From contig VLJF02000033.1 of NCBI GenBank assembly GCA_008360975.2, forward strand, positions 1,612,001-1,676,000: a DNA stretch of 64,000 bases, read 5' to 3'. Positions 1,949 through 64,000 of the stretch are shown one piece after another. The notes beneath the pieces were generated by a model that was not told the origin of the DNA, made no database searches, and worked only from the letters and a program-made list of their open reading frames with translations. This DNA is from Lichenostomus cassidix. Its lineage: Eukaryota > Chordata > Aves > Passeriformes > Meliphagidae. The translations under genes were made by a program, and so were the position numbers. The stretch's first letter is position 1; each line of letters opens with the position of its first letter.

Positions 1949-3601
<1,653 letters not shown>

Positions 3602-3810
3602 GGGAAGCCCTGCGAGTGTCCCGAGTGCAGGAAGAGCTTCATTGCTGCTCCATCTCCATCCCTAGTGGGAAGATCTGTAGTGGATGATCCCCAGTGATCC
3701 CCGTTGGGCAGAATCCTGGTGACCCCCATTCCAGGTGATCCCCGTCGGGTGAGGGGAATGTGTTTTAAATGGTCAAATTTTCCTTCTTCTCCTGCTCTGA
3801 GTTTGTTAGC

Positions 3811-3816
3811 AATAAA
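3811..3816 (+). terminator. ZNF1 poly(A) signal
   Basis: AATAAA about 210 bp after the stop codon. The same motif and context follow ZNF4, ZNF6 and the inverted ZNF9. Inferred end of the ZNF1 transcript. Confidence 0.6.
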
Positions 3817-4551
3817 TTCAATTCACATATCCAATTCCGAGCCTGTTTTGTGCACAAAGGTGTTGGATGAGGGATCTCTTAGCCAGGTCCTTCTATCAGC
3901 TCAGGAAGCCTTGGTTCAATTTTCTCTCCCCATGGCGGCTGTGCAGGGCAGTGAGAGAGCAGCTCTGCTGGGTGCCTGGCATGGGGCCAGCGTCACCCCA
4001 CTGCAATGTGCCATGGCCTCGTGTGGCCCTGTGCTCTGGAGCCAGCGCTGCTGTTGCTTTTTCCTTGCTGATGGTTTTCTCTTTTGCAGGAAAGGCTTGT
4101 GAAGTGCCCCCGCTGTCCCTGGCGTCCCCTGGGCGCCGGCAGCCGCGTCCCTTGGCTTGCTCCCCCTGGGCCGTTGCAGGGCGGCTGGCGGAGGCTGGGA
4201 GCTGCCGTTGGGGCCGTGGGGCTGCCCCGGGGGCTGCGTGCCGAGGCGGGGCCGGGAGGTGCGGAGAACTTGGTCGCTATTTGCAGAGCAATGGCGCCTT
4301 GGGCCCGGGCCCGTTGCAGGGCTGTTCCTCATGTGCTGCTTTGGCCTCGGCCAGTCCGGGGGGCACTGAGAGCGTGGGGCTTGGGCTGTGCGCTGTGCAG
4401 AGCCCGCGCCTCGCTGCCCTTGGCTGGCTGTGCTGTCACTCGGGATTGTCCCAGCGCAATTGCTGCTCGGTGCCAGCGAGCGGGGACAAGGCCGGCGCCG
4501 GTGTCGCCCCCAGGCAGGCAGGCAGGGCTTTAGTGGGGCAGCAGCGGCGCC

Positions 4552-4643
4552 ATGGTGGGAGCGTGTGTGCGGCCCGGGAGCGGCGGCAGCGGGCGGAGCC
4601 CGGGGAGGCGGCGGCGGAGCTCGGAGAGGCTGTCCCAGCGCAG
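4552..4643 (+). other. Candidate first exon in CpG-rich module, copy 1
   Basis: The GC-rich block about 4080-4800 looks like a CpG-island promoter. Within it a good Kozak context (GCGCCATGG) opens MVGACVRPGSGGS and runs 30 codons to a donor AG|GTGGGA at 4643/4644. The reading frame is the same in all four copies (also 28941, 46673 and minus 62564). No domain is recognisable in so short and Arg-rich a piece and no partner exon was found, so this is a candidate only. An acceptor-like TCTTTTGCAG at about 4080-4090 suggests splicing into the module from the left. Confidence 0.35.
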
Positions 4644-4880
4644 GTGGGAGCCGCGCTGCCTTGTGCCGGGGCTCGGGGCTCGCTGCGGGCGGATGGAGGG
4701 GATGCAGGGGGCGGCAGGGGGGCTGTGGCGGCTTCTTTCTCCCGTCTCCCTCCCTCCCTCCCTCCCTGGCTGTGGCGCCGTGTTGCCGCTGGCCTGAGGC
4801 TCCTGAGGGAGCGGCTGCCCGCGGTCTCCTTGCCGCTCCTTAACAACAGGAGGGGGAGAACTGTATTCTGTGGCAAATGA

Positions 4881-5636
4881 AAATTAATACATTTTAAACC
4901 ATTTACAGCCACATGCGCTGAAGGGTGAAAAGATAGCAGACCGTATAACCCATTTAGTGAGAAATGCTGCTGATAGTTGGCATGGCGACTCAGTGAGAAA
5001 GCCAGAGGGCTCACTTGTAAATCATGGTGAGCTTCGGAGATGGTGCTTTGGTTCCTGGATCTGTCAGTCAAGCTGAGAATCACAGCCATAGCAGTTAGTA
5101 GCATGTTTCCAAATCTCATCACAGAAGGCAGAGTCATTGCCTCTTAGAGTGTCTACCTTCCTCAGCCACATGGTAGTGGAAAGACAGAGTATTCAAAGTG
5201 ATCAACAAATTGATAATCAACAAGAGTCTGCTAAAGGGAATTGCAAACAAGGTTGCAATCTCACTATAAGGCCTTGGCAAGTCACTTGAGACAATTTCTT
5301 GTCCACAGAATGGAGAAGGACAAAGAACTGCATGAAAACTGCAGGTGGGGTTATTGTGATGTTCAGGTGCAGGAAACATGACAGCAGAAGTGCAAAATTG
5401 TGTTTTTCTGTCCGTCCTGCTCTAGTGCACAGCATTTCTTGGTACATCATTCAAATACACGCAGTACTTTTGTAGTGCTCCCAGAACAGAGCTCTGAACA
5501 AGAATTCAAGGCAGAATCTGCTTGTCTGCAAAAAACCCAAATGTTGGTTCAATAGCTAAGCTGGGAAGAAGAGAAGGGTGGCACCTTTCAGTACAGGATA
5601 AATTGTGCTTACGAAGAAAACTCTGCTAGGAAGAGG
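4881..5636. other. Gene-free unique stretch
   Basis: No coding signal, repeat family or RNA gene recognised. Base composition is close to balanced, unlike the GC-rich blocks around it. It is not repeated elsewhere in the window. Confidence 0.5.
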
Positions 5637-6154: not shown

Positions 6155-6768
6155 TCCACCTGGAATTGGGTTTGATCCACCTGGAACTGGAATGGATTTA
6201 CCTGAAATGGGGTTTTGTCGACCTGGAATTAGGTTGATTCATCCTGGAATTCGGTTGCATCCCACTGGAATTTGGTTTAACCGACCTGGAATTGGGTTGG
6301 ATCCACCCGGAATTTGGTTGAGTCTCTCAGGTATTTGGTTGGTTCATCCTGCAGTTGGGTTGGGTCCAGCTGGAACTGGGTTTGATCCATCTGGAATTCA
6401 GTTGGATTTACCTCAAATTGGGTTTGATCCACCTGGAATTGGATTGGATAAAGCTGGACTTTGGTTTAATCTGCCTGGAATTTGGTTTGATCCTCCTGGA
6501 ATTGGGTTGGATCCACCTGGAACTGGATTGGATTCACCTGGAATTCCGTTGGATCAACCTGGAATTGGGTTAAATCCACCTGGAATTGGGTTGAATGCCC
6601 TTGGAATTCAGTTTGATTTACCTGGAATTGGGTTTGAGCCACCTGGAGATGGATTTGATCCACCTGAGAGTGGGTTGGATTTACCTGGAATTTGGTATAA
6701 TCTGCCTAGAACTGGATTTGATCCACCAGGAATTGGGTTGAGTCCACCTGGAATTGGGTTTGAATGGT
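6138..6768. repeat. 21-bp minisatellite, copy 1
   Basis: About 30 degenerate units of CCTGGAATTGGGTTGGATCCA (21 bp minus minor changes). Because the unit is a multiple of three, both strands stay open; the minus strand reads heptads of the form QFQVDPT. Other arrays lie at 14311, 22169, 39087 and 55600. Confidence 0.9.
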
Positions 6769-6959
6769 GTTGGTGCTGCAGTAGAGGCTGGAATTGCCCC
6801 AGGATCCTCCTGGAATCGAGTCAGACACACCTGGAATTGGGCTGAATTCCCCTGGAAATGGACTTTTGGTTATATTCTGTCTGGATGATGGTGTGGGGCA
6901 GTGGGAATGGGGAATTGTGGGGGGTGAGAGCATAAAAATCCTGGAAAATGGGGATTTCC

Positions 6960-7385
6960 ACCCAAAATCCTGGGAACAGAGGGGTTTGGGCACTGCCAGA
7001 GCCCCAAAATCCTGGGGAAAAGAGGAATTTGAGCATTCTGAGCCTTTCAAAATCCTGGGAAAAAGAGGATGTGGGAACTCCCAGTTCCCCAAATCCTCAG
7101 TACAGGGGGATTGGGAACTCTTAGAGCCCAAAAATTGCGAGAACAGGGTGGTTTGGGAAATCCAAGAGCCGCAGTATACTATAAAAAGAGGATATGGGAA
7201 CACGCAGTTCCCTAAATCCTGTGTACAGGAGGGTTGTGGAACGCCCAGCCCCAAGAAATCCTGGGAATGGGGGGCTTTGGGAACTCCTAGAACCCCAAAA
7301 TCTCGGGTACAGGGGGGTTTGGGAACTGTCAGAACCCCAAAACCGTGGGAAAAGAGGAGTTTGGCCACTGCTGACCCCGAAAATT
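6960..7385. repeat. About 43-bp minisatellite in leader-gene intron, copy 1
   Basis: Roughly ten degenerate units, each containing CCCCAAAATCCTGGGAACAG followed by a GGTTTGGGAACTC-like part. It lies in what would be the first intron of the minus-strand leader exon at 7557-7632. Shorter versions occur at 39790 and 56300. Confidence 0.7.
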
Positions 7386-7556
7386 GAAAAAAAAATGGGG
7401 AAAACCCTGAAAAAAGAGGAAGCTGGGCCAACGCCCTTCCCAGAAAAATCCCCAAAAAGGGGGATGGACCTTCTGAATCTCCCCGATCCCCTTTTGCCAT
7501 GGATCCAGGACACCCCAAATGCCAACGCCGCGGCTCCAGGACCCCCCAAAGCCCAC

Positions 7557-7632
7557 CTTGGAGCCCCCAAAGGCCAGGCAGGGTCAGCGCCAGCAGCAGC
7601 AGCAGGCAGGGGCAGCTCCGTGCTCCATCCAT
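7557..7632 (-). pseudogene. Orphan leader-peptide exon, copy 1
   Basis: Minus-strand ATG at 7632 encodes MDGARSCPCLLLLLALTLPG and five more residues: a short charged start, a Leu-rich core and a plausible signal-peptidase region. It ends in phase 1 at the donor CCAAG|GTGGGC. A phase-1 leader exon is usual for MHC and Ig-type genes. No following exon is seen, and the promoter upstream has been deleted in this copy, so it is treated as a remnant. Identity unknown. Confidence 0.5.
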
Positions 7633-10209: not shown

Positions 10210-10901
10210 GTGAGGGGGAGGAGGAAGTCGCCCCAAATGTCTCGTGGGTCCCCGAGCGGCGTTTTTTCTGGGCGGGTGTTTGGAGCTCGCAGCTTGCGGG
10301 ATTGAGCCCCAAATCTCGTTCAGGGTCGCTGGGAGGGTTTGATTGTGCGGGGGGAACGTTTGGATGTGGCGGAAGGGCAAAGCTGAGGCGGCAGTGGGGC
10401 TTTGGGGGATATTTTGGGGGCTGCAGGTGGGCACGGCCCGGTGTCGGGGTGGGAGGGGGACATGGGGCATGGGGTCCGGCCGGGAGAGCGGTGGAGGGGA
10501 AGGGCGGGAGCCCCGGAGTGGGGTGAGCGGAGAGGGGCGATGGCGGAGCTGGGGGAGCCCCGGCAGGCTGGAGAGGGGGGAGCGTGGCTAAGGGGGAAGC
10601 CTGGGATCCCTGGAAGCGCGGAGCAGAGAATGAGGGGAGAAGGGACCCCTGGGACCCCCAAAGCCCCCAGATCATCCCTAAGCGGGACCCTGGAAAATAG
10701 GGAAGCCCGGGAGCCACGGGAGCCCCATGAGTGCAGGGAAGGGAGAGCCTGAGGAGGCCAAAGTGCAAAGAGCAGAGAGGAGGAAATGCTGATAGGGTTT
10801 TGAGGTGAATGGTGGTGGTTTGGGGATTTTATGGACACAAAAGCCTGGGAGAGTTGCAGAGCAGGAGCTGGGCAGGAGGAACCCCCAGGGCAAGGCGCTG
10901 A

Positions 10902-11625
<724 letters not shown>

Positions 11626-11951
11626 GGGAAGCCCTGCGAGTGTCCCGAGTGCAGGAAGAGCTTCATTGCTGCTCCAACTCCATCCCCAGTGGGAAGATCT
11701 GCAGTGGATGATCCCCAGTGACCCCAGCTCTGCAGAGCCCTGGTGATCCGTGCTGCTGGTGATCCGTGTGGCAAAGACACCTGGCTGGTGGCTCCACACC
11801 CTCCTGGCTCCCCGTGGGCACCTGGATGAAGGCAGGGCCAGGAATGTCCATGGGAGTTCCTGGGGACATCAGAAATTGCCTGGGGAGAGCGGATTTGTTG
11901 ACTTTCCACCCCAGAAAATCTCACCTTTTGTGTTCAGTTATATCATCTCTT

Positions 11952-12360: not shown

Positions 12361-12761
12361 TTTATTTGATAGTAAATATGAGAGAAAGTGGGAGGAAAAG
12401 AGAGGAAAAGAGAAGTAGGAAAAGAGGTGAGGGGGACAGAAAGAGGGAGAAAGAAAACATCACCATCCGTGGATCCCAACGATGTCACATTGATCTTCTC
12501 CAGCTGCTCTTCTCAGTGGTGGTTTTCCCCCCAAAAAGCACAGAGTGCCAAGGGTTAATATACACTCAGGCCAGGTGACAATGTCCAGCATGTCCCCCCG
12601 GGGCAGGGGACAGTCTCTAGCAGCAGACTCTGCTTGCATCACCTGCACTGCTGTGGTGCAAGGCCTGGCATTTGGGGGTCTGTGATGGATTGTGACTCCC
12701 CTCAGCTCCTCTCACGTCAAAGTCCCGATTTGATGTCGAACTGCTCCAGCAGCGTGCGGTG
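12361..12761 (-). other. Terminal exon of unidentified minus-strand gene, copy A
   Basis: On the minus strand a short frame ends LHRTLLEQFDIKSGL and TGA (12717-12719), followed by about 350 bp of unique sequence and an AATAAA signal (12361-12366). The three copies (37404, 53762) are almost identical in this coding end and 3'UTR, as expected for a real last exon. No acceptor directly precedes the conserved codons; the sequence upstream is a minisatellite. I do not recognise the protein. In copies B and C a leader exon lies upstream on the same strand. Confidence 0.4.
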
Positions 12762-19627: not shown

Positions 19628-20318
19628 GTGAGGGGGAGGAGGAAGTCGCCCCAAATGTCTCGGGGGTCCCCGAGCGGCGTTTTTTCTGGGCGGGTGTTTG
19701 GAGCTCGCAGCTTGCGGGATTGAGCCCCAAATCTCGTTCAGGGTCGCTGGGAGGGTTTGATTGTGCGGGGGAACGTTTGGATGTGGCGGAAGGGCAAAGC
19801 TGAGGCGGCAGTGGGGCTTTGGGGGATATTTTGGGGGCTGCAGGTGGGCACGGCCCGGTGTCGGGGTGGGAGGGGGACATGGGGCATGGGGTCCGGCCGG
19901 GAGAGCGGTGGAGGGGAAGGGCGGGAGCCCCGGAGTGGGGTGAGCGGAGAGGGGCGATGGCGGAGCTGGGGGAGCCCCGGCAGGCTGGAGAGGGGGGAGC
20001 GTGGCTAAGGGGGAAGCCTGGGATCCCTGGAAGCACGGAGCAGAGAATGAGGGGAGAAGGGACCCCTGGGACCCCCAAAGCCCCCGGATCATCCCTAAGC
20101 GGGACCCTGGAAAATAGGGAAGCCCGGGAGGCACGGGAGCCCCATGAGTGCAGGGAAGGGAGAGCCTGAGGAGGCCAAAGTGCAAAGAGCAGAGAGGGGG
20201 AAATGCTGTGAGGGTTTTGAGGTGAATGGTGGTGGTTTGGGGTTTTTATGGACACAAAACCCTGGGAGAGTTGCAGAGCTGGAGCTGGGCAGGAGGAACC
20301 CCCAGGGCAAGGCGCTGA

Positions 20319-26282: not shown

Positions 26283-26754
26283 GTGAGGGGGAGGAGGAAG
26301 TCGCCCCAAATGTCTCGTGGGTCCCCGAGCGGCGTTTTTTCTGGGCGGGTGTTTGGAGCTCGCAGCTTGCGGGATTGAGCCCGAAATCTCGTTCAGGGTC
26401 GCTGGGAGGGTTTGATTGTGCGGGGGGAATGTTTGGATGTGGCAGAAGGGCAAAGCTGAGGCGCCAGTGGGGCTTTGGGGGATATTTTGGGGGCTGCAGG
26501 TGGGCACGGCCCGGTGTCGGGGTGGGAGGGGGACATGGGGCATGGGGTCCGGCCGGGAGAGCGGTGGAGGGGAAGGGCGGGAGCCCCGGAGTGGGGTGAG
26601 CGGAGAGGGGCGATGGCGGAGTTGGGGGAGCCCCGGCAGGCTGGAGAGGGGGGAGCGTGGCTAAGGGGGAAGCCTGGGATCCCTGGAAGCGCGGAGCAGA
26701 GAATGAGGGGAGAAGGGACCCCTGGGAGCCCCAAAGCCCCCGGATCATCCCTAA

Positions 26755-28017
<1,263 letters not shown>

Positions 28018-33149: not shown

Positions 33150-34105
33150 TTAGAGGTGAGTTTGGGGCCTGCTGCAGATATACTGCATGTCATTTGAACA
33201 GATCGCACTCCCGAGATAATTCTCAGCCAGGTGCACACACCCTGCATTGCCCAGGACAGGAACCCTGCAAGGAGGAGCAGAGACATGGCTGGAACCTCAG
33301 AAGAACACATTGTGCCCCTGTGCCCCCAGGCTCTGCCTGTGCCCCCGGGCCCTGCCTGTGCCCCCAGGCCCTGCCTGTGCCCCCCAGGACTCACGAGGAG
33401 CTGAAGCTGCTGCCATCCACCCACTGCAGCCGCTGGCCCTGTCTGTGCAGCCCGAGTCAGTAATCAACATTCCTGCTGAGGTGGAACAGGAACTCCTGGC
33501 AAGGAGAGAGGAGCAAACAATGGACTCCTAGCCCAGGAGCTCCCCAGGGTCCCCTTGGCCTTCCCAAACCCCCCAAACCCCTCACTCACCATTTCCTTGT
33601 CAGTGAGCACAGCCAGGGAAGCCTCGAGCTCGGAGCACCGAGCCTTAGCCTGATCCCAGGAGAGACGATGCCTCGAGAGGAAGTAGCAGATCCCGTTGTA
33701 CCCAACCCAGCCATGGGGACAGGCCAGCAGCACCCGAGCTGCAGGGTTAACTGGAGTAACTGGAGTCTCTCTGTGTATTCTCCCTGCAGAGGGAAATGGA
33801 GAAGAATGTTTGAGGATTCTCCCCTCAGGCAGCAGTGAGCCCGCAGTGCCCCGAGGGGTTGGGCTGAGGCTGCTGCTCCTCCCTTACCTGACACAGCAGC
33901 CAAGGACACTGCCAGAGCCACAGCCAGGGCTAGGAGCACAACCAGCACCACGATAAACTTGAGGTGGGATCTGATCCTCTGGCCTGGAGCTGGAAAGAGC
34001 AGTTCGTCGTGAGCATGGAGCTGTCCTGAGCAGGCTCAGCCCTCACATCTCCCACCCGACGCCCAGGGAACAGAGGAGGGACCCTCAGCCTGTGTGCCAC
34101 TCACT
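33150..34105 (-). CDS. C-type lectin-like receptor, CLEC2/CD69 type (lectin 2)
   Basis: Best preserved lectin. Minus-strand exons: 33989-33888 (membrane anchor, IRSHLKFIVVLVVLLA), 33783-33590 (CPHGW, ICYFLS, ARCSELE), 33495-33395 (DYWLGL, QWVDG; donor GTGAGT intact) and 33264-33150 (GCVHLAENY, AICSNDMQ, YICSR, stop). All acceptors are AG, all donors GT and the phases agree. Six conserved cysteines form the long-form CTLD; calcium-binding EPN/WND residues are missing, as in NK-cell-type lectins. Type II topology: N-terminal cytoplasm, one helix, short stalk, CTLD outside. A first exon probably ends at 34105, but its start codon is not certain because a 19-bp repeat lies inside it. Resembles avian B-lec/Y-lec genes; the ligand is unknown. 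Confidence 0.75.
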
Positions 34106-35353: not shown

Positions 35354-36046
35354 GGTGAGGGGGAGGAGGAAGTCGCCCCAAATGTCTCGGGGGTCCCCGA
35401 GCGGCGTTTTTTCTGGGCGGGTGTTTGGAGCTCGCAGCTTGCGGGATTGAGCCCCAAATCTCGTTCAGGGTCGCTGGGAGGGTTTGATTGTGCGGGGGGA
35501 AGGTTTGGATGTGGCGGAAGGGCAAAGCTGAGGCGGCAGTGGGGCTTTGGGGGATATTTTGGGGGCTGCAGGTGGGCACGGCCCGGTGTCGGGGTGGGAG
35601 GGGGACATGGGGCATGGGGTCCGGCCGGGAGAGCGGTGGAGGGGAAGGGCGGGAGCCCCGGAGTGGGGTGAGAGGAGAGGGGCGATGGCGGAGCTGGGGG
35701 AGCCCCGGCAGGCTGGAGAGGGGGGAGCGTGGCTAAGGGGGAAGCCTGGGATCCCTGGAAGCACGGAGCAGAGAATGAGGGGAGAAGGGACCCCTGGGAC
35801 CCCCAAAGCCCCCGGATCATCCCTAAGCGGGACCCTGGAAAATAGGGAAGCCCGGGAGCCACGGGAGCCCCGTGAGTGCAGGGAAGGGAGAGCCTGAGGA
35901 GGCCAAAGTGCAAAGAGCAGAGAGGGGGAAATGCTGGGAGGGTTTTGAGGTGAATGGTGGAGGTTTGGGGTTTTTATGGCCACAAACCCCTGGGAGAGTT
36001 GCAGAGCTGGAGCTGGGCAGGAGGAACCCCCAGGGCAAGGCGCTGA

Positions 36047-36670
<624 letters not shown>

Positions 36671-36997
36671 GGGAAGCCCTGCGAGTGTCCCGAGTGCAGG
36701 AAGAGCTTCATTGCTGCTCCAATTCCATCCTCAGTGAGAAGATCTGCAGTGGATGATCCCCAGTGACCCCAGCTGTGCAGAGCCCTGGTGATCCGTGCTG
36801 CTGGTGATCCGTGTGGCAAAGACACCTGGCTGGTGGCTCCACACCCTCCTGGCTCCCCGTGGGCACCTGGATGAAGGCAGGGCCAGGAATGTCCATGGGA
36901 ATTCCTGGGGACATCAGAAATCCCCTGGGGAGAGCGGATTTGTTGACTTTCCACCCCAGAAAATCTCACCTTTTGTGTTCAGTTATATCATCTCTTG

Positions 36998-37062
36998 GCA
37001 TGAGGCAACACTGGATGGCCTTGGAGGTCTTTTGCAACCTCATTGATTCCATGATTGTGATT
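36998..37062 (+). mobile_element. CR1 LINE 3' end
   Basis: Same CR1 fragment as at 11952 in the ZNF5 3' flank. Confidence 0.75.
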
Positions 37063-37403
37063 TTCTCTCACCCAGTGGCATCTTTCACAGCCAAATGGTT
37101 CTGCATTGGGGCAAAGAGCAGGATTTTGGGGTGGAAACCTCCAAAAATGTTCTTCCCTTCTACCCAACCACGTGGATCCTCAGCGGGCACAGACATGTAA
37201 ATCCTTTTCTTTCAGGTTTGGTCTTGTTTTCATTTCAATCCTTCAAAACACCTGAATTTGGGGTAAAAATGAAGATATTGAGGTGAGACATGGGTGGGAC
37301 ATTGGGGTCACAGCTGTTATGATCCAAACATTAAGGTTCTTTGGAAATACATCTGCCCGAATTAAGGTGCAAACGAGACCACATGCCAGTCAGTAGTGTA
37401 GGT

Positions 37404-37804
37404 TTTATTTGATAGTAAATATGAGAGAAAGAGGGAGGAAAAGAGAGGAAAAGAGAAGTAGGAAAAGAGGTGAGGGGGACAGAAAGAGGGAGAAAGAAAA
37501 CATCACCATCCGTGGATCCCAACGATGTCACATTGATCTTCTCCAGCTGCTCTTCTCAGTGGTGGTTTTCCCCCCAAAAAGCACAGAGTGCCAAGGGTTA
37601 ATATACACTCAGGCCAGGTGACAATGTCCAGCATGTCCCCCCGGGGCAGGGGACAGTCTCTAGCAGCAGACTCTGCTTGCATCACCTGCACTGCTGTGGT
37701 GCAAGGCCTGGCATTTGGGGGTCTGTGATGGATTGTGACTCCCCTCAGCTCCTCTCACGTCAAAGTCCCGATTTGATGTCGAACTGCTCCAGCAGCGTGC
37801 GGTG
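37404..37804 (-). other. Terminal exon of unidentified minus-strand gene, copy B
   Basis: Coding end HRTLLEQFDIKSGL with TGA at 37760-37762 and AATAAA at 37404-37409, nearly identical to copy A. The leader exon with an intact class II-type promoter lies 2.3 kb upstream on the same strand (40108-40183), so this copy is the best candidate for the 3' end of that gene. The internal exons are not visible. Confidence 0.42.
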
Positions 37805-37807
37805 GAG

Positions 37808-38075
37808 ATTTTTGGGGGTTCTGTGCCGTTTTGGGGGATTTTTGTGTCCTTCTTGGGGTTTCTGGGTCATTTTTGGGGGGGTTCTGGGTCACCTTTTGGG
37901 GTTTCTGTCTCACTTTTGGGCGTTTGTCATGTCATTTTTGGGGTTTTTTATCATTTTGGGAGTTTCTGTGTCATTTTTAGGGTCTCAAGTGTCACTTTTG
38001 GGGATTTCTGTGTCATTTTTTGGGGTTTCTTTGTCGTTTTTTGGGATTCTGTGTCACTTTTTGGTGGGGTTGGGG
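37808..38075. repeat. 20-21-bp minisatellite, copy B
   Basis: About 13 units of GTTTCTGTGTCATTTTTGGGG type, shorter than copy A by about nine units. Confidence 0.85.
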
Positions 38076-38309
38076 GTTCCACAGCTGGGCAGTTTGTGTA
38101 AACCTGGCTTCTGCTGATGCCTGATGGGTTTTTGTCCTTTTTCATTGTACTTTTATACTCTTTTTATATCCTCTTTACCCTTTCCCATTCCTGTACCTTT
38201 TACTCTCTGTATCTCAGCCCCACATGTTTATAACCCTTGTGCTCCAGCCTCGTTCAGAATTCTGTGGAGAAGACGAAACAATCTCCACAATTTCAAGAGC
38301 ATGAGGCAC

Positions 38310-38600
38310 CAGCCTTGAAAGAGCTTTATCACTGGGACATGTTTCTGTAAACTAATTTGTAACTTTTTTGGGGAGAGGTAATTTGAATAAGGGGGCAATT
38401 ACTTCATAGGTTTCTCATTGGGGAATTTTAGATAGGGATGTTAATCAGTGAAGTCCATAAATTGCAAACCCGTGATATTGTCGCTCTCTTTCCGTCGTGG
38501 TGCACCTGGGATCCTATTAAACCAAGGGAATACCCTTTTCCTACACTGCGGGGTCTGTGCTCAATCTTTCCCAGCATTTTAGGCATCACAGTGAGCTGTG
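38310..38600 (+). mobile_element. LTR-like segment, copy B
   Basis: Same sequence as at 13480, with CCTATTAAACCAAGGG and GGGGTCTGTGCTCAATC. Confidence 0.3.
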
Positions 38601-38872
38601 CTCTGCCCCCACCCCAAACTCAGCCAGGGATGATTCTCAGAGCAGCTGGTGGCTTTGGATTTGTGTGTGCATTCCTTTCCCTCAGCCTGAGATGAGTGAA
38701 CAATAGGTTTCCCTTTATGGGATCTCAGCAGTTTGACTCTCAGTCCAAAGTCCCAGTCAGGTATCTTCAGGGAGGATTTTTGATTGTAGCTTCTTTGTAC
38801 ACTTTTTGTTATAATGAGCAAAACTTTGTATCGATGTTTGAGGTGTGAAATATTTCAGTGTCTGATAACAGC

Positions 38873-38960
38873 CATGGTGGGACATTGGGGACACAGCCAG
38901 GGTGGGACACTGGGGACACAGCCAGGGTGGGACATTGGGGACACAGACAGGGAGGGCAAA
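38873..38960. repeat. 25-bp minisatellite, copy B
   Basis: Three to four units of GGTGGGACATTGGGGACACA type. Confidence 0.8.
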
Positions 38961-39086
38961 GGCAGGCAGAGCTGTCCCTGTCCAAACCTGCACCCAAAAA
39001 TTTCCAAATTCAGGGATTTCTCACAGAAAAAAGCTGTCAGGAGCTTCCTGAATGGAGGGAAAGGGGCGATGGGACATTTAAAAGAG

Positions 39087-39605
39087 TTGAATTGGGTTTG
39101 ACACCCCTGGAATTGGGTTTGGTCCTCCTGGAACTGGATTGGATTGACTGGGAATTGGGTTGGATTGACCTGGAATTTGGTTTGATCCACCTGGAACTGG
39201 ATTTGGTTTACCTGGAATGGGGTTGAATCGACCTGGAATTTGGTTTGACCCCCCTGGAATTTGTTTTGACTCACCTGGAGTTGGGTTTGATCAATCTGGA
39301 ATTCAGTTGGATTTACCTGGAATTGGGTTAGATTTACCTGGAATTCGATTTGATCCACGTGAAAAAGAGTTGTATTTTTCTGGAATTTGGTTGACTCGAC
39401 CTAGAATTGGGTTAGATCCACCTGGAATTGGGTTTGACTCACCTGGAGTTGGATTTGATCCACCTGGAATTGGGTTTTATCTACCTGGAATTGGATTGAA
39501 TGCCCCTGGAATTTGCTTTAATCTGCCTGTAATTGGGTTGGACCAACCTTGAGCTGGATTTGACTCACCTGGAATTGGGTTGAATCCACCTGGAATTGGG
39601 TTTGA
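39087..39605. repeat. 21-bp minisatellite, copy 4
   Basis: About 25 units. On the minus strand each unit carries TTCCAGGTGGATC, which resembles a splice junction (CAG|GT). It would lie in the first intron of the minus-strand leader gene. Confidence 0.85.
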
Positions 39606-39789
39606 TTGTGTTGGTGCTGCAGTAGAGGCTGGAATTGCCCCAGGATCCTCCTGGAATCGAGTCAGACACAGCTGGAATTGGGCTGAATTCCCCTGGAAAT
39701 GGATTTTTGGTTATATTCTGTCTGGATGATGGTGTGGGGCAATGGGAATGGGGAATTGTGGGGGGTGAGAGCATAAAAATCCCGGAAAA

Positions 39790-39930
39790 ATGGGGATTTC
39801 CACCCAAAATCCAGGGAACGGGGGGTTGGGAACTCCTAGAGCTCCAAAATCTCGGGTACAGCGGGGTTTTGGAACTGTCAGAACCCCAAAACTGTCGGAA
39901 AAGAGGAGTTTGACCACTCCTGACCCCAAA
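39790..39930. repeat. About 43-bp minisatellite, copy 2 (short)
   Basis: Three or so units of the CCCCAAAATC...GGGTTTTGGAAC family, contracted from about ten in copy 1. Confidence 0.6.
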
Positions 39931-40107
39931 AAATGGGGAAAAAAACCCAGGGAAAACCCTGAAAAACAGGAAGTTGGGCCAACACCCTTCCCAGAAAAAT
40001 CCCCAAAAAGGGGGATGGACCTTCTGAATCTCCCCGATCCCCTTTTGCCATGGATCCAGGACACCCCAAATCCCAACGCCGCGGCTCCAGGACCCCCCAA
40101 AGCCCAC

Positions 40108-40183
40108 CTTGGAGCCCCCAAAGGCCAGGCAGGGTCAGCGCCAGCAGCAGCAGCAGGCAGGGGCAGCTCCGTGCTCCATCCAT
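40108..40183 (-). CDS. Leader-peptide exon with class II-type promoter (copy 2)
   Basis: ATG at 40183 encodes a 25-residue signal peptide (MDGARSCPCLLLLLALTLPG...) and the exon ends in phase 1 at CCAAG|GTGGGC (40108/40107). X1-, X2- and Y-box motifs lie 110-150 bp upstream in the orientation that serves this exon. Together this suggests an MHC-type or antigen-presentation gene, for example a class II alpha or DM-like chain, divergent from the class II beta gene 380 bp away. I find no following alpha-1 or Ig-type exon in the next 2 kb, so the gene may be broken. Identity is inference only. Confidence 0.5.
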
Positions 40184-40290
40184 GGCGCCTCGGGATGTGG
40201 CGACACTGGGAAGGGTCGCTGGTGGTCCCAGTGCAGCGGCGGCGAAGTGGGGGGAGTGGGAGTGGGGGCGCAGCGCCCCAAAAGCGGCGG

Positions 40291-40335
40291 AGCCAATGGG
40301 AGGGCGCGTGTGTTGTGTCGTCACCGGTTGCCGGG
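40291..40335 (-). promoter_or_regulatory. X-Y module of MHC class II type
   Basis: Read on the minus strand: X1 CCCGGCAACCGGTG (40335-40322; 10 of 14 positions agree with the well-known human DRA X box), X2-like TGACGACA (40323-40316), a 15-20-bp spacer, then Y box CCCATTGGCT (40300-40291). Order, orientation and spacing fit RFX, CREB/X2BP and NF-Y binding followed by CIITA recruitment. The start codon served, 40183, is about 110 bp further on. No clear S box was found. Confidence 0.62.
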
Positions 40336-40369
40336 TAGAGCCTGTGCAAAACGGGCCCCAAACCGGCCC

Positions 40370-40474
40370 GGCCAATCGGAGCGCGTCCAAAACAACTGCG
40401 GCCAATGGCAGCGCGCCCAAAACCACGCCCAGGCAATGGGAGCGCGTCCCAAAACGGCGCCCGGCCAATCAGAG
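40370..40474. promoter_or_regulatory. Tandem CCAAT array with about 31-bp period
   Basis: Four repeats starting at 40370, 40400, 40432 and 40463, each beginning GGCCAAT (third decayed to GGCAAT) followed by GAGCGCGTCCAAAAC-like sequence. They lie between the X box and the class II beta start and may be NF-Y sites for either gene. Confidence 0.6.
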
Positions 40475-40565
40475 CGCGCGGGTCGGATGATCCCGCCCTG
40501 CTCCGGACTGGAGCTCCCAGTGCAGCGGCTGCTGCGGGGCTGGCGGCAGCTGCCCGGCGCTGGCC

Positions 40566-43416
40566 ATGGGGCGAGTGGCGGCAGCTGGGGCCCTACTGGT
40601 GGCACTGGTGGTGCTGGGAGGCACCCCGGCTGCGGGCGCGGAGCTGTCGGGTGAGCGGGGGGAGCAGGGAATGCGATGGGAAAGGGGGAAAAGGGGAAAG
40701 AAAGGGGTTTGGGAGCCCAAAGTGGAGGGGGAGGAGGAGGGGAAGCCGAAAGGGAGAGCGGGAGGGGCTGAGGGTTGGGGGAAGGTGAGGAAGGGGTGGG
40801 AGAGGGTGGGGAAGTGGGGAAAAGGGGAGGGTGGGAGCCCAAAACTGAGCGGGAGGGGGATGGGGATGGAGAAATTGTGGGTGAAAGGGTGGGAAAACGG
40901 CAAAAAGAGAGGATGGACCCCAAAACTGCATTGGGGAGTAGCTGACAATGGCGGGGAGTGAGGATGTGAAAGGAAAAATAGGGAGAAGGGTGGGAAAGAG
41001 GAAGTGGGAGCGCGGGCAGGAGGGTCCCATGGCGGCCGTGGGGCACAGGGGGTGGGGAGTGGGGATCCGGGGTGACCCCCGGAGCTCTGGGATCGATGGG
41101 GGTGCTGGGGGAACGCCTGACCTGTGCCTTGCACACACAGGGGTCTTGCAGTTTATGGCATCCAGCGAGTGTCACTTCATTAACAGCACGGAGAAGGTGA
41201 GGTTCCTGCAGAGGTACATCTACAACCGGGTGGAGTACCTGAGGTTAGACAGCGATGAGGGGAAATACTTGGGGTTCACCCCCTTTGGGGAGAAATGGGT
41301 CAAGTACTGGAACACCAACCCAAATCTACTGGAGTATGTACAGACTGAGGTGGACAGGTACTGCCGGCACAACTACGAGGTGTTCACCCCGTTCAGCGTG
41401 GAGCGCAGAGGTGAGCGTGGGACAGAGGTGTCCCCTCAGGCTCTGCCCTGGCAATGACCCTGCAGCCCCTCAAACCCTCCCTGGGAATCACCCAGAGCCC
41501 TCAGCCCTCCTTGTGCCAAACCAGGGGCTTCTTGTCCTTCTCAGTGACTCCTATAGCTCTCCCAGTCCCCCCCAGTCCATCCCAGTCCCCCCTCAGCGCG
41601 TCCATTTCAGCCAAGCGTGAAGATGACGCTCCTCAGATAATCATTTCGCACGTCTCTGATGACTCATCAGGCAGACAAGCTGCACCGAGTTCCCCGCGCT
41701 GGGCTTAACCTCACAATGCCGTGGAATTCATTCCCAGTTCCTCCCAGTGCCACCACAGTCACTCCCAATGTCTCTAATGCAATCCCAGTCCATTCCCAGT
41801 GCACTCCCAGACCTCCACCCTCCATGAAGTGCCCTCCCAGTGCTCCCCAATCCACACACTTCTCTTCCAGTCATTTTCCAGTCCCAATGCCACCACAGTC
41901 ACTCCCAGTCCCTCTAAACCCAATCACAGTTCAATCCCAGTCTGTTCTCATTCCCCTACGAGACCTCCATTCTCTCTCCCATTGCCCTCACAGTGCTCCC
42001 CCATCCACTCCCCGCTTTTCCAGTGCCACCACGCTCCATCCCAGTCCCTCTAAACCCATCCCCAGTCCATGCCCAGTCCACTCCCAGACCTCCACCCTCT
42101 CTCCCAGTGCCTTCCCAGTGGTCCCCAATCCACTCCCCTCTCTCCCACTGCCAGCCCCAGTCCCTCCCACTTCATTCCCATTCCCTCCCAGTCCATTCCC
42201 AGTCCCTCCCAGTGCCACACCACCCCTCCCAGCTCTCTCCCAGCGCCCCCCCAGCTGATCCCAGTGTCTCGCCTCTCTCTCCCAGTGCCCCCCAGCGTGT
42301 CCATCTCGCTGGTGCCCTCGAGCTCCCAGCCCGAGCCCGGCCGCCTGCTGTGCTCCGTGATGGATTTCTACCCTGCGCAGGTGCAGGTGAGGTGGTTCCA
42401 GGGCCAGCAGGAGCTCTCGGAGCAAGTGATGACCACCGACCTGCTCCCCAACGGGGACTGGACCTACCAGCTGCTGGTGCTGCTGGAAACGCCCCCCCGG
42501 CACGGGGTCACCTACACCTGCCAGGTGGAGCACGTCAGCCTGGAGCAGCCCCTGAGGCGGCACTGGGGTACGGCCAGAGCCCACAGTGCCGGGGGGAGCG
42601 GGGGAGGCACTGGGGGGCTGGCAGGGGGATTGGGCTGTGCTGGGGGGAACTGGGAGGGAGGTGGAGAGAGGCTGGTTTATACTGGGAGAGGGGCTTGGGG
42701 GTGTGGGAGGGCTGGGAAGGGGTTGGAAGGATATTGGGGAGGGTGGGATGAGGTTCTGGGGGTGCTGGTGGGCACTGGGAGGGAGTTTGGGAGTGCTGGG
42801 GGGCACTGGGAGGGAGTTTGGGGGTGCTGGGGGAACTGGGAGGGAGTTGGAGTGAGGCTGGAGGGGCTGGAAGGAGATTGGGGATGCAAAAGCAAAGGTT
42901 GGAATGAGGTTGGTTGTGCAGGGAAGAGACTGGGAGGGACCTTGGTGAGTCCTGGTGGGGCTCGGAAGGGACTGGGAGAGGGTTTGGGGGTCCTGGGGCG
43001 GTGGGGGGCAACTGGGAGGGGTTGTGGGGTGCTGAGAGGGACGGGAGGGGCTTTGGTGTGTCCTGGGGAGGCTGGGAATGGATCGGGAGGAGGTTTCAGG
43101 GGCTCCTGGGTGGGCTGGGGGCGACTGGGAGGGTGCATGGAGGGGCTTGGGGTGTCGGTGAGAGGTTTTTGGGGGTCCTGATCCCTGCTGACCCCCCAGA
43201 GATGCCGCCGGACGCTGCCCGCAGCAAGATGCTGACGGGGATCGGGGGCTTCGTGTTGGGCTTCGTCTTCCTGGCGCTGGGGCTCGGCTTCTACCTGCGC
43301 AAGAAGGTGAGGGGGGGGCCCGGGGGTCGTGTCCCCCCTGCCCCGGAGCGGCTGTGCTCCCCCCGGGGCCCCCCAGCCCGGTGTCACCCCCTTTTCTCTG
43401 CCCACAGAGCTCCTGA
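40566..43416 (+). CDS. MHC class II beta chain, complete gene
   Basis: Beta subunit of the class II heterodimer, which presents peptides to CD4 T cells at the surface of antigen-presenting cells. Exons: 40566-40650 leader (MGRVAAAGALLVALVVLGG), 41141-41410 beta-1 (270 bp), 42286-42567 beta-2 (282 bp), 43200-43306 connecting peptide and membrane helix, 43408-43416 (SS, stop). Splice sites and phases are all good; 250 aa. Beta-1 keeps its two cysteines (SSEC, RYCRHNY), the conserved His-Asn of CRHNY, the WN of KYWNT and an N-glycosylation site (NST). Beta-2 has LLCSVMDFYP and YTCQVEH. The cytoplasmic tail is very short (LRKKSS), usual for songbirds. No canonical X-Y box faces this gene; only CCAAT boxes do. 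Both other copies in the window are truncated. Whether it is classical or MHC-Y-like cannot be decided here. Confidence 0.93.
41735..42280 (+). repeat. Class II beta intron-2 minisatellite, copy 2
   Basis: Units of CCCAGTCCCTCCCAGTGCC type, about 20-25 bp, ending right at the exon 3 acceptor. Confidence 0.8.
42580..43190 (+). repeat. Class II beta intron-3 G-rich repeat, copy 2
   Basis: Degenerate GGGGCACTGGGAGGGAGTTT units; longer than in copy 1 by about 180 bp. Confidence 0.6.
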
Positions 43417-44406: not shown

Positions 44407-45098
44407 GTGAGGGGGAGGAGGAAGTCGCCCCAAATGTCTCGGGGGTCCCCGAGCGGCGTTTTTTCTGGGCGGGTGTTTGGAGCTCGCAGCTTCCGGGATT
44501 GAGCCCCAAATCTCGTGGAGGGTCGCTGGGAGGGTTTGATTGTGCGGGGGGAACGTTTGGATGTGGCGGAAGGGCAAAGCTGAGGCGGCAGTGGGGCTTT
44601 GGGGGATATTTTGGGGGCTGCAGGTGGGCACGGCCCGGTGTCGGGGTGGGAGGGGGACATGGGGCATGGGGTCCGGCCGGGAGAGCGGTGGAGGGGAAGG
44701 GCGGGAGCCCCGGAGTGGGGTGAGCGGAGAGGGGCGATGGCGGAGTTGGGGGAGCCCCGGCAGGCTGGAGAGGGGGGAGCGTGGCTAAGGGGGAAGCCTG
44801 GGATCCCTGGAAGCGCGGAGCAGAGAATGAGGGGAGAAGGGACCCCTGGGACCCCCAAAGCCCCCGGATCATCCCTAAGCGGGACCCTGGAAAATAGGGA
44901 AGCCCGGGAGGCACGGGAGCCCCATGAGTGCAGGGAAGGGAGACCCTGAGGAGGCCAAAGTGCAAAGAGCAGAGAGGGGGAAATGCTGGGAGGGTTTTGA
45001 GGTGAATGGTGGAGGTTTGGGGATTTTATGGACACAAACCCCTGGGAGAGTTGCAGAGCTGGAGCTGGGTAGGAGGAACCCCCAGGGCAAGGCGCTGA

Positions 45099-51546: not shown

Positions 51547-52236
51547 GTGAGGGGGAGGAGGAAGTCGCCCCAAATGTCTCGGGGGTCCCCGAGCGGCGTT
51601 TTTTCTGGGCGGGTGTTTGGAGCTCGCAGCTTGCGGGATTGAGCCCCAAATCTCGTTCAGGGTCGCTGGGAGGGTTTGATTGTGCGGGGGAACGTTTGGA
51701 TGTGGCGGAAGGGCAAAGCTGAGGCGGCAGTGGGGCTTTGGGGGATATTTTGGGGGCTGCAGGTGGGCACGGCCCGGTGTCGGGGTGGGAGGGGGACATG
51801 GGGCATGGGGTCCGGCCGGGAGAGCGGTGGAGGGGAAGGGCGGGAGCCCCGGAGTGGGGTGAGCGGAGAGGGGCGATGGCGGAGCTGGGGGAGCCCCGGC
51901 AGGCTGGAGAGGGGGGAGCGTGGCTAAGGGGGAAGCCTGGGATCCCTGGAAGCGCGGAGCAGAGAATGAGGGGAGAAGGGACCCCTGGGACCCCCAAAGC
52001 CCCCGGATCATCCCTAAGCGGGACCCTGGAAAATAGGGAAGCCCGGGAGCCACGGGAGCCCCATGAGTGCAGGGAAGGGAGAGCCTGAGGAGGCCAAAGT
52101 GCAAAGAGCAGAGAGGGGGAAATCCTGTTAGGGTTTGAGGTGAATGGTGGTGGTTTGGGGTTTTTATGGACACAAACCCCTGGGAGAGTTGCAGAGCTGG
52201 AGCTGGGCAGGAGGAACCCCCAGGGCAAGGCGCTGA

Positions 52237-56785: not shown

Positions 56786-56861
56786 CTTGGAGCCCCCAAA
56801 GGCCAGGCAGGGTCAGCGCCAGCAGCAGCAGCAGGCAGGGGCAGCTCCGTGCTCCATCCAT
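56786..56861 (-). pseudogene. Orphan leader-peptide exon, copy 3
   Basis: Same 25-residue leader as at 40183, with donor CCAAG|GTGGGC. As in copy 1, the X-Y promoter that should lie upstream is deleted, so expression is doubtful. Confidence 0.5.
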
Positions 56862-59518: not shown

Positions 59519-60222
59519 GTGAGGGGGAGGAGGAAGTCGCCCCAAATGTCTCGGGGGTCCCCGAGCGGCGTTTTTTCTGGGCAGGTGTTTGCAGCTCGCA
59601 GCTTGCGGGATTGAGCCCCAAATCTCGTTCAGGGTCGCTGGGAGGGTTTGATTGTGCGGGGGGAACGTTTGGATGTGGCGGAAGGGCAAAGCTGAGGCGG
59701 CAATGGGGCTTTGGGGGATATTTTGGGGGATATTTTGGGGGCTGCAGGTGGGCACGGCCCGGTGTCGGGGTGGGAGGGGGACATGGGGCATGGGGTCCGG
59801 CCGGGAGAGCGGTGGAGGGGAAGGGCGGGAGCCCCGGAGTGGGGTGAGCGGAGAGGGGCGATGGCGGAGCTGGGGGAGCCCCGGCAGGCTGGAGAAGGGG
59901 GAGCGTGGCTAAGGGGGAAGCCTGGGATCCCTGGAAGCGCGGAGCAGAGAATGAGGGGAGAAGGGACCCCTGGGACCCCCAAAGCCCCCGGATCATCCCT
60001 AAGCGGGACCCTGGAAAATAGGGAAGCCCGGGAGGCACGGGAGCCCCATGAGTGCAGGGAAGGGAGAGCCTGAGGAGGCCAAAGTGCAAAGAGCAGAGAG
60101 GGGGAAATGGTGGGAAGGTTTTGAGGTGAATGGTGGTGGTTTGGGGTTTTTATGGACACAAACCCCTGGGAGAGTTGCAGAGCTGGAGCTGGGCAGGAGG
60201 AACCCCCAGGGCAAGGCGCTGA

Positions 60223-62564: not shown

Positions 62565-63303
62565 GGCGCCGCTGCTGCCCCACTAAAGCCCTGCCTGCCT
62601 GCCTGCCTGGGGGCGACACCGGCGCCGGCCTTGTCCCCGCTCGCTGGCACCGAGCAGCAATGGCGCTGGGACAATCCCGAGTGACAGCACAGCCAGCCAA
62701 GGGCAGCGAGGCGCGGGCTCTGCACAGCGCACAGCCCAAGCCCCGCGCTCTCAGTGCCCCCCGGGCTGGCCGAGGCCAAAGCCGCACATGAGGAACAGCC
62801 CTGCAACGGGCCCGGGCCCAAGGCGCCATTGCTCTGCAAACAGCGACCAAGTTCTCCGCACCTCCCGGCCCCGCCTCGGCACGCAGCCCCCGGGGCAGCC
62901 CCACGGCCCCCACGGCAGCTCCCAGCCTCCGCCAGCCGCCCTGCAACGGCCCAGGGGGAGCAGGCCAAGGGACGCGGCTGCCGGCGCCCAGGGGACGCCA
63001 GGGACAGCGGGGGCACTTCACAAGCCTTTCCTGCAAAAGAGAAAACCATCAGCAAGGAAAAAGCAACAGCAGCGCTGGCTCCAGAGCACAGGGCCACACG
63101 AGGCCATGGCACATTGCAGTGGGGTGACGCTGGCCCCATGCCAGGCACCCAGCAGAGCTGCTCTCTCACTGCCCTGCACAGCCGCCATGGGGAGAGAAAA
63201 TTGAACCAAGGCTTCCTGAGCTGATAGAAGGACCTGGCTAAGAGATGCCTCATCAGACACCTTTGTGCACAAAACAGGCTCAGAATTGGATATGTGAGTT
63301 GAA

Positions 63304-63309
63304 TTTATT
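63304..63309 (-). terminator. ZNF9 poly(A) signal
   Basis: AATAAA on the minus strand, about 210 bp after the ZNF9 stop. Confidence 0.6.
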
Positions 63310-63518
63310 GCTAACAAACTCAGAATAGGAGAAGAAGTAAAATTTGACCATATAAAACACCTTCTTCTCAAATTACAGGGATCACCTGGAATGGGGGTCA
63401 CCAGGATTCTGCCCAACGGGGGTCACTGGGGATCATCCATTGCAGATCTTCCCACTGGGGATGGAGTTGGAGCAGCAATGAAGCTCTTCCTGCACTCGGG
63501 ACACTCACAGGGCTTCCC

Positions 63519-64000
<482 letters not shown>

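Follow-up and report, generated by a model that had tools for sequence, protein, structure and literature searches.

The window analyzed here, by which we mean the whole 64-kb stretch of DNA (C67:1612001-1676000, within a 1.1-Gb genome), contains a class II beta gene on the plus strand, which faces a short signal-peptide exon on the minus strand. The beta gene comprises the coding part of exon 1 (40566-40650, phase 1), exon 2 encoding the beta-1 domain (41141-41410, PF00969), exon 3 with a C1-set domain (42286-42567) and the transmembrane exon 4 (43200-43306). Exon 2 was identified by profile search and Pfam, exon 3 by Pfam and a check of the sequence, and exons 1 and 4 by sequence check; the reading frame is intact over exons 1 to 4 and a short fifth exon, with GT/AG borders. 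On the opposite strand, the coding part of the leader exon (40108-40183) measures 76 nt, encodes the 25 residues MDGARSCPCLLLLLALTLPGLWGLQ, and ends in phase 1 at the donor GTGGGC. Its start codon and the beta ATG at 40566 are 383 bp apart. An earlier, sequence-only reading of this DNA had described both the phase 1 signal-peptide exon and a beta start about 380 bp away on the other strand, and in these points it was accurate.

In class II genes, RFX, CREB-type factors and NF-Y assembled on the X1, X2 and Y boxes recruit CIITA. Such boxes lie on the minus strand between the two starts, as found by motif scoring and sequence check: X1 (CCCGGCAACCGGTG) at 40335-40322, X2 (TGACGACA) at 40323-40316 and Y (CCCATTGGCT), which contains an inverted CCAAT (ATTGG), at 40300-40291. 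A distance of 108 bp separates the end of the Y box from the leader ATG (40183). When X1, X2 and Y are scored together at class II-like spacing, this site reaches 29, the top score on both strands of the 64-kb window, followed by a second-best site with 24. The maxima of 60 dinucleotide shuffles of the window range from 22 to 24 per shuffle, a comparison which is strong but not blind, since consensus and spacing were picked after the site had been seen. Under the same scheme, a stretch of HLA-DRA scores 28; an exact X-box pattern has zero matches genome-wide. The canonical order and spacing of the three boxes, and their position about 110 bp before the leader, had been proposed from the letters alone and hold up. 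Between the Y box and the leader ATG, the alpha-side 5' leader and proximal promoter (40184-40290, minus strand) is conserved in 20 copies, with a pi of 0.0078 over 40187-40285. On the other side, the interval from X1 to the beta gene carries four CAAT motifs about 30 bp apart on the plus strand (40370-40480), three of them CCAAT and one GCAAT, at 40373, 40403, 40434 and 40466; this array lies inside a region (40286-40570) with a CpG o/e of 0.91 and a GC content of 0.70.

By homology, the minus-strand leader is exon 1 of an MHC class II alpha gene (IIA/DRA). The Pfam family MHC_II_alpha (PF00993) has two matches in the genome, C67:1324318-1324551 and C254:5645-5878, and at both a leader precedes alpha exon 2 on the same strand and is head-to-head with a beta exon 2. 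The copy on C67 keeps alpha exons 1 and 2, with its leader block at C67:1317105-1317410 and beta at 1316125. Contig C254 (14.9 kb) carries a leader block at 11443-11748 with a beta exon 2 head-to-head at 12569, and its minus strand contains the leader (11586-11511), alpha exon 2 (5886-5632, 255 bp, beginning PPHSIIQTEFYQKS) and exon 3 (320-39, 282 bp), the last of which was found at 62% identity by a chicken-like alpha-2 query. With GT/AG borders and phase 1 throughout, these three exons join into one open chain of 204 residues, which aligns at 72-77% with named passerine alpha chains covering the whole query. By this chain the bird is a passerine, since 21 of its 24 top-ranking protein matches come from passerine species, the other three carry no species name, and a crane, at rank 25, is the first match from outside the passerines. 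Leader and exon 2 together also find PDB entries of class II alpha chains, with a best E of 7.7e-24. A comparison of the leader with bird class II alpha chains, as the sequence-only reading had proposed, used 14 of 120 listed proteins and found a corresponding leader in nine of the ten named passerine chains (eight species), seven of which start MDGARS; the remaining one, from Passer (P0021), has no such leader. The zebra finch, house finch and cowbird chains start MDGARSLPRLLPLLAL, as against MDGARSCPCLLLLLAL here, and one zebra finch model is N-terminally extended. Lonchura starts MAGARS, Parus MDGSSS and three non-passerines MAGGRG. Class I, DM and tapasin, considered as sources of the leader, are ruled out by C254 and the passerine alpha chains, and the supposedly unknown gene thus has a name.

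Bases 1-2093 of C254 match C67:2631168-2633255 at 99.7%, starting exactly where a 500-N gap ends, and an alpha transmembrane-like frame at about C67:2636839, downstream of the matching stretch, is a candidate exon. From this overlap, the small contig would belong in or beside the C67 gap or represent the other haplotype. The two copies of alpha exon 2 may be either allelic or paralogous. The gap itself (C67:2630668-2631167) directly precedes the part with alpha exons 3-4, and C254 may fill it. Within C254, the start of alpha exon 2 recurs in three extra partial copies at about 6390-7568, inside the minisatellite of intron 1, while intron 2 (about 3000-5600) holds several repeats of the end of exon 2.

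In the window itself, the genome-wide profile search gave no match to PF00993 (alpha-1), which rules out a hidden class II alpha exon 2 there, and the alpha-2 query had no match there apart from the exon 3 of each of the three beta genes (38% identity). Since neither alpha-1 nor alpha-2 exons are present, the window holds an orphan exon and not an alpha gene; nothing of the minus-strand gene that had been postulated was found beyond exon 1. A complete alpha partner is absent from the window and partial elsewhere, with exons 1-3 on C254 and exons 1-2 in the copy at C67:1317105. Divergent alpha and beta starts less than 1 kb apart mark a dyad, and the window has them. The suggested likeness to a head-to-head alpha/beta dyad is largely right, since a divergent pair surrounds one X1-X2-Y module, the leader is alpha exon 1 and a dyad with this leader exists on C254; in the window, exon 1 is all that remains of alpha.

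Flank comparison locates the loss. Next to the leader, part of alpha intron 1 survives, including the beginning of the 42-bp minisatellite of that intron (39803-40107, minus strand); then comes the junction of the alpha-body loss, formed by a spacer and the end of a 21-bp satellite (39543-39802); a query of 39600-39815 has no match in either exon-2-bearing copy. Beyond the junction, 36700-39542 aligns collinearly (95-98%) with C67:1328869-1325728, a stretch located past alpha exon 2 in the copy on C67 that keeps exons 1-2. The order of an intron of about 180 bp, the 42-bp minisatellite (91 to 1461 bp), a spacer (about 90-105 bp) and the 21-bp satellite is the same in 27 of the 29 sequences measured, namely those with the exact leader string; the exceptions are L027, with a spacer of 197 bp, and L010 (the C254 copy), without the 21-bp satellite within 2.4 kb. 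Two more orphan alpha leaders with the identical peptide lie on the minus strand of the window (7557-7632 and 56786-56861), and both of them lack X-Y along with beta exons 1-2. In the simplest history, whose order we infer from these flanks, the dyad would have been copied with part of alpha, a single loss of exon 2 would have followed, and the exon-1 form would then have multiplied.

Several other features were noticed in the window. C2H2 zinc-finger frames with 84-bp repeats (36047-36667, plus strand, and related units) recur in the beta-gene repeating unit. A stretch of at least 300 bp is present in eight copies that are 98-100% identical to the reference copy and spaced 6.7-9.4 kb apart (2141-2440, 10401-10700, 19818-20117, 26474-26773, 35546-35845, 44598-44897, 51737-52036 and 59722-60021). 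An inverted repeat of 1407 bp (3120-4526 and 62594-64000) is 96% complementary across 58 kb, and beta genes occur in both orientations along C67. A C-type-lectin-like frame on the minus strand (33467-33883) matches the Pfam family UL45 below cut-off only (E 0.0075).

The block extending from the leader to X-Y is multiplied in this genome together with the beta gene. A 306-bp query yielded 40 scored copies out of 44 candidates, 31 of them full and 9 lacking the X-Y side; these counts are lower bounds drawn from the best-scored candidates, and the leader-bearing loci L026-L028 fall outside the 40. Every one of the 31 full copies faces a beta exon 2 head-to-head at a distance of 763-833 bp, as against none of the 9 copies without the X-Y side, and alpha exon 2 follows the leader in only 2 of the 31. 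Counted from the beta side, 31 of 39 exon-2 places have the full block (39 of 54 PF00969 rows were used, after dropping twelve on C75, C76 and C491 and three that were further pieces of exons already counted). Among 37 fetched beta loci, 30 have an X-Y score of at least 27, always inverted relative to beta, and with the two best sites considered per locus no beta-oriented module scores above 23. The statement that beta has no X box of its own is in keeping with this result.

Eight beta places fall outside this pattern. L036 has X-Y, and no leader was found there; at L030 (C67:103000-106800), a divergent beta faces an inverted X-Y-like site with a score of 26 and no alpha leader beyond it. L026, L027 and L028 (C67, at about 406k, 351k and 425k) keep the leader and miss the stretch from the leader to beta exon 1, including X-Y; as their two sides join inside a sequence (CCCAGTGCAGCGGC) that is present at both ends of that stretch in the window, a repeat-mediated deletion is likely. 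Beta exon 2 contains a stop in L027 and L028, and none in L026. The last three, L006, L029 and L042, have neither leader nor X-Y. Conversely, X-Y is kept at L008 despite a stop in beta exon 2 and at L039-L041, where the beta exon 2 match is split, the Y core of L039 and L040 being ATTAG; the presence of X-Y and the soundness of the beta gene are thus not strictly coupled. The X-Y-like site of L030 lies about 60 bp from a stretch homologous to window position 40488.

Conservation of the block has to be read with care. Over 20 sequences (the window and 19 of 20 fetched loci, L006 being unaligned over the block), the 25-residue leader is identical in 19, with one change in L008, and ATG, open leader and donor are present in all 20 as well as in both truncated window copies. 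In more diverged copies, missense and in-frame CTG-run changes of the leader are mixed (divergence values were obtained with 6 of 10 loci submitted). The near-identity among copies covers the whole block (40050-40800), including the start of beta intron 1, so that it could equally well result from constraint or from recent copying or gene conversion, and conservation alone is no proof that X-Y is used.

Taken together, these observations make it probable that the locus derives from an MHC class II dyad in which alpha and beta stood head-to-head and shared a bidirectional promoter, and that X-Y most likely drives beta. X-Y is the sole class II-type module found near these beta genes, all 31 full copies carry it together with a beta exon 2, and L036 and L030 carry it, or a divergent version of it, where no leader was found; on these grounds it most likely serves beta, and the contrary claim of the sequence-only reading, that the promoter does not drive the class II beta gene, is probably wrong. 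We envisage one X1-X2-Y module of the CIITA type, to which RFX, CREB-type factors and NF-Y would bind, oriented towards alpha and placed within the less than 400 CpG-rich bp between the start codons. In the C254 dyad, this module would act on both neighbors, alpha and beta. The window and most scored sister copies have lost the body of alpha, and the beta gene was multiplied with its promoter; alpha exon 1 would travel along because the promoter needed by beta lies on its far side, towards alpha. The output of the orphan copies would be beta, activated through an inverted module with the CAAT array nearer the beta start; the orphan alpha exon would be a passenger, hard to shed without cutting near the promoter, and any minus-strand transcript a by-product that is non-coding or encodes the leader only. 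An active promoter would be in keeping with the intact beta frame and the CpG o/e of 0.91.

By the canonical rule, however, the orientation of X-Y favors alpha, and this counterpoint is the starting position of the principal alternative, in which alpha alone depends on the module, beta relies instead on the CAAT array and CpG promoter or on a distant enhancer, and the X-Y boxes of orphan copies are a relic kept by recent copying. The four CAAT motifs between X1 and beta would suit it, as would the block-wide homogeneity, the three beta loci with a leader and without X-Y, one of which has no exon 2 stop, and the persistence of X-Y beside the damaged beta copies L008 and L039-L041. Against it stand the three observations just named, namely the lack of any second class II-type module among those found, the two loci without a detected leader, and the constant company of beta exon 2, and we regard it as unlikely. 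A further conjecture, which extends the shared two-way promoter and to which we give a still smaller chance, is that the orphan alpha exons are not inert and that the roughly 31 beta promoters fire divergently under CIITA in antigen-presenting cells, producing capped alpha-leader RNA. If so, divergent firing could help to hold the beta promoter in an open state or provide leader peptides or regulatory RNA, or the exons could serve as spares for the rebuilding of alpha by recombination, and what selection has multiplied in songbirds would be the two-way promoter and not just the beta gene.

The remaining alternatives fare worse. The leader might be exon 1 of a working gene of the window, spliced to new downstream exons and giving a chimeric secreted or membrane protein, and the ATG, open leader and donor retained in all 20 aligned and both truncated window copies would agree with this. 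A new downstream exon was nevertheless rejected, as the five minus-strand frames from 36077-40592 that were submitted to Pfam (among 10 of the 153 window frames) contain no domain; moreover, the 1 kb downstream consists mostly of 42-bp and 21-bp satellite and the next exon of the leader is known from C254, so that we hold such a gene to be very improbable. Signal-like frames arise easily in GC-rich 5' regions, but a chance X-Y match next to a fortuitous leader frame can be dismissed almost with certainty, given a score of 29 against the 22-24 of all 60 shuffles and the homology of the leader to those of annotated alpha chains from passerines.

Songbirds carry roughly a single class II alpha gene against dozens of beta genes. 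The stranded alpha first exons suggest a history other than duplication of beta without alpha, in which each copy of beta took promoter and alpha exon 1 along while the rest of alpha disappeared, and a promoter on the alpha side offers a physical reason for the co-copying of exon 1. In long-read passerine assemblies, the leader could serve as a marker for dating the expansion and for asking whether the event is shared, and it makes divergent transcription of a multicopy immune promoter testable by RNA-seq.

The shared two-way promoter proposed here can be set beside several known systems. The order, orientation and spacing of the S-Y boxes of class II genes are described as highly conserved in the relevant passage of PMC2278383, and the X1, X2 and Y boxes of the window follow the order and spacing of this S-X-Y (RFX/CIITA) enhancer; they differ from it in that two genes flank a single module, whose orientation is opposite to that of the gene most likely served. 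In the crested ibis and the Oriental stork, MHC-IIA and MHC-IIB are reported to be head-to-head (PMC4172706; PMC5314415). The stork exon lengths given in PMC5314415 (73/258/282 bp for IIA, 270/282/107 bp for IIB exons 2-4) nearly match those found here (76/255/282 for IIA on C254, 270/282/107 for IIB in the window). According to these accounts, each ibis or stork pair keeps its alpha gene, whereas the window and most scored sister copies keep alpha exon 1 only, and X-Y boxes, which are present here, do not figure in the ibis and stork passages.

For passerines, the corresponding passages describe one MHC-IIA and many MHC-IIB genes (PMC8893315; PMC10641522; PMC10349553). The survey of 45 bird genomes in PMC8893315 reports, in the part concerned, a single IIA in most passerines and no evidence of linkage to IIB, although its Table 2 marks IIA-IIB linkage in three species, and it reads the beta expansion as duplication without alpha; in the great reed warbler and the zebra finch, the single IIA is said to adjoin IIB paralogs (PMC10349553). 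Neither an orphan alpha exon 1 nor a shared promoter is mentioned in the passages of these three papers, and an orphan alpha exon 1 is likewise absent from the titles and abstracts listed by a literature search on class II promoters, passerine IIA/IIB linkage and co-duplication, and chicken W/X/Y boxes. The promoter-linked alpha fragment multiplied with beta appears to be a new variant of the dyad, part of which may already be described. With its few alpha genes, dozens of beta genes and duplicated beta copies, the architecture seen in this one genome of one passerine, read from its DNA sequence, resembles that of other passerines. The orphan alpha first exons behind most of its beta genes suggest that the shared promoter was duplicated in the course of the beta expansion, which left alpha exon 1 stranded.
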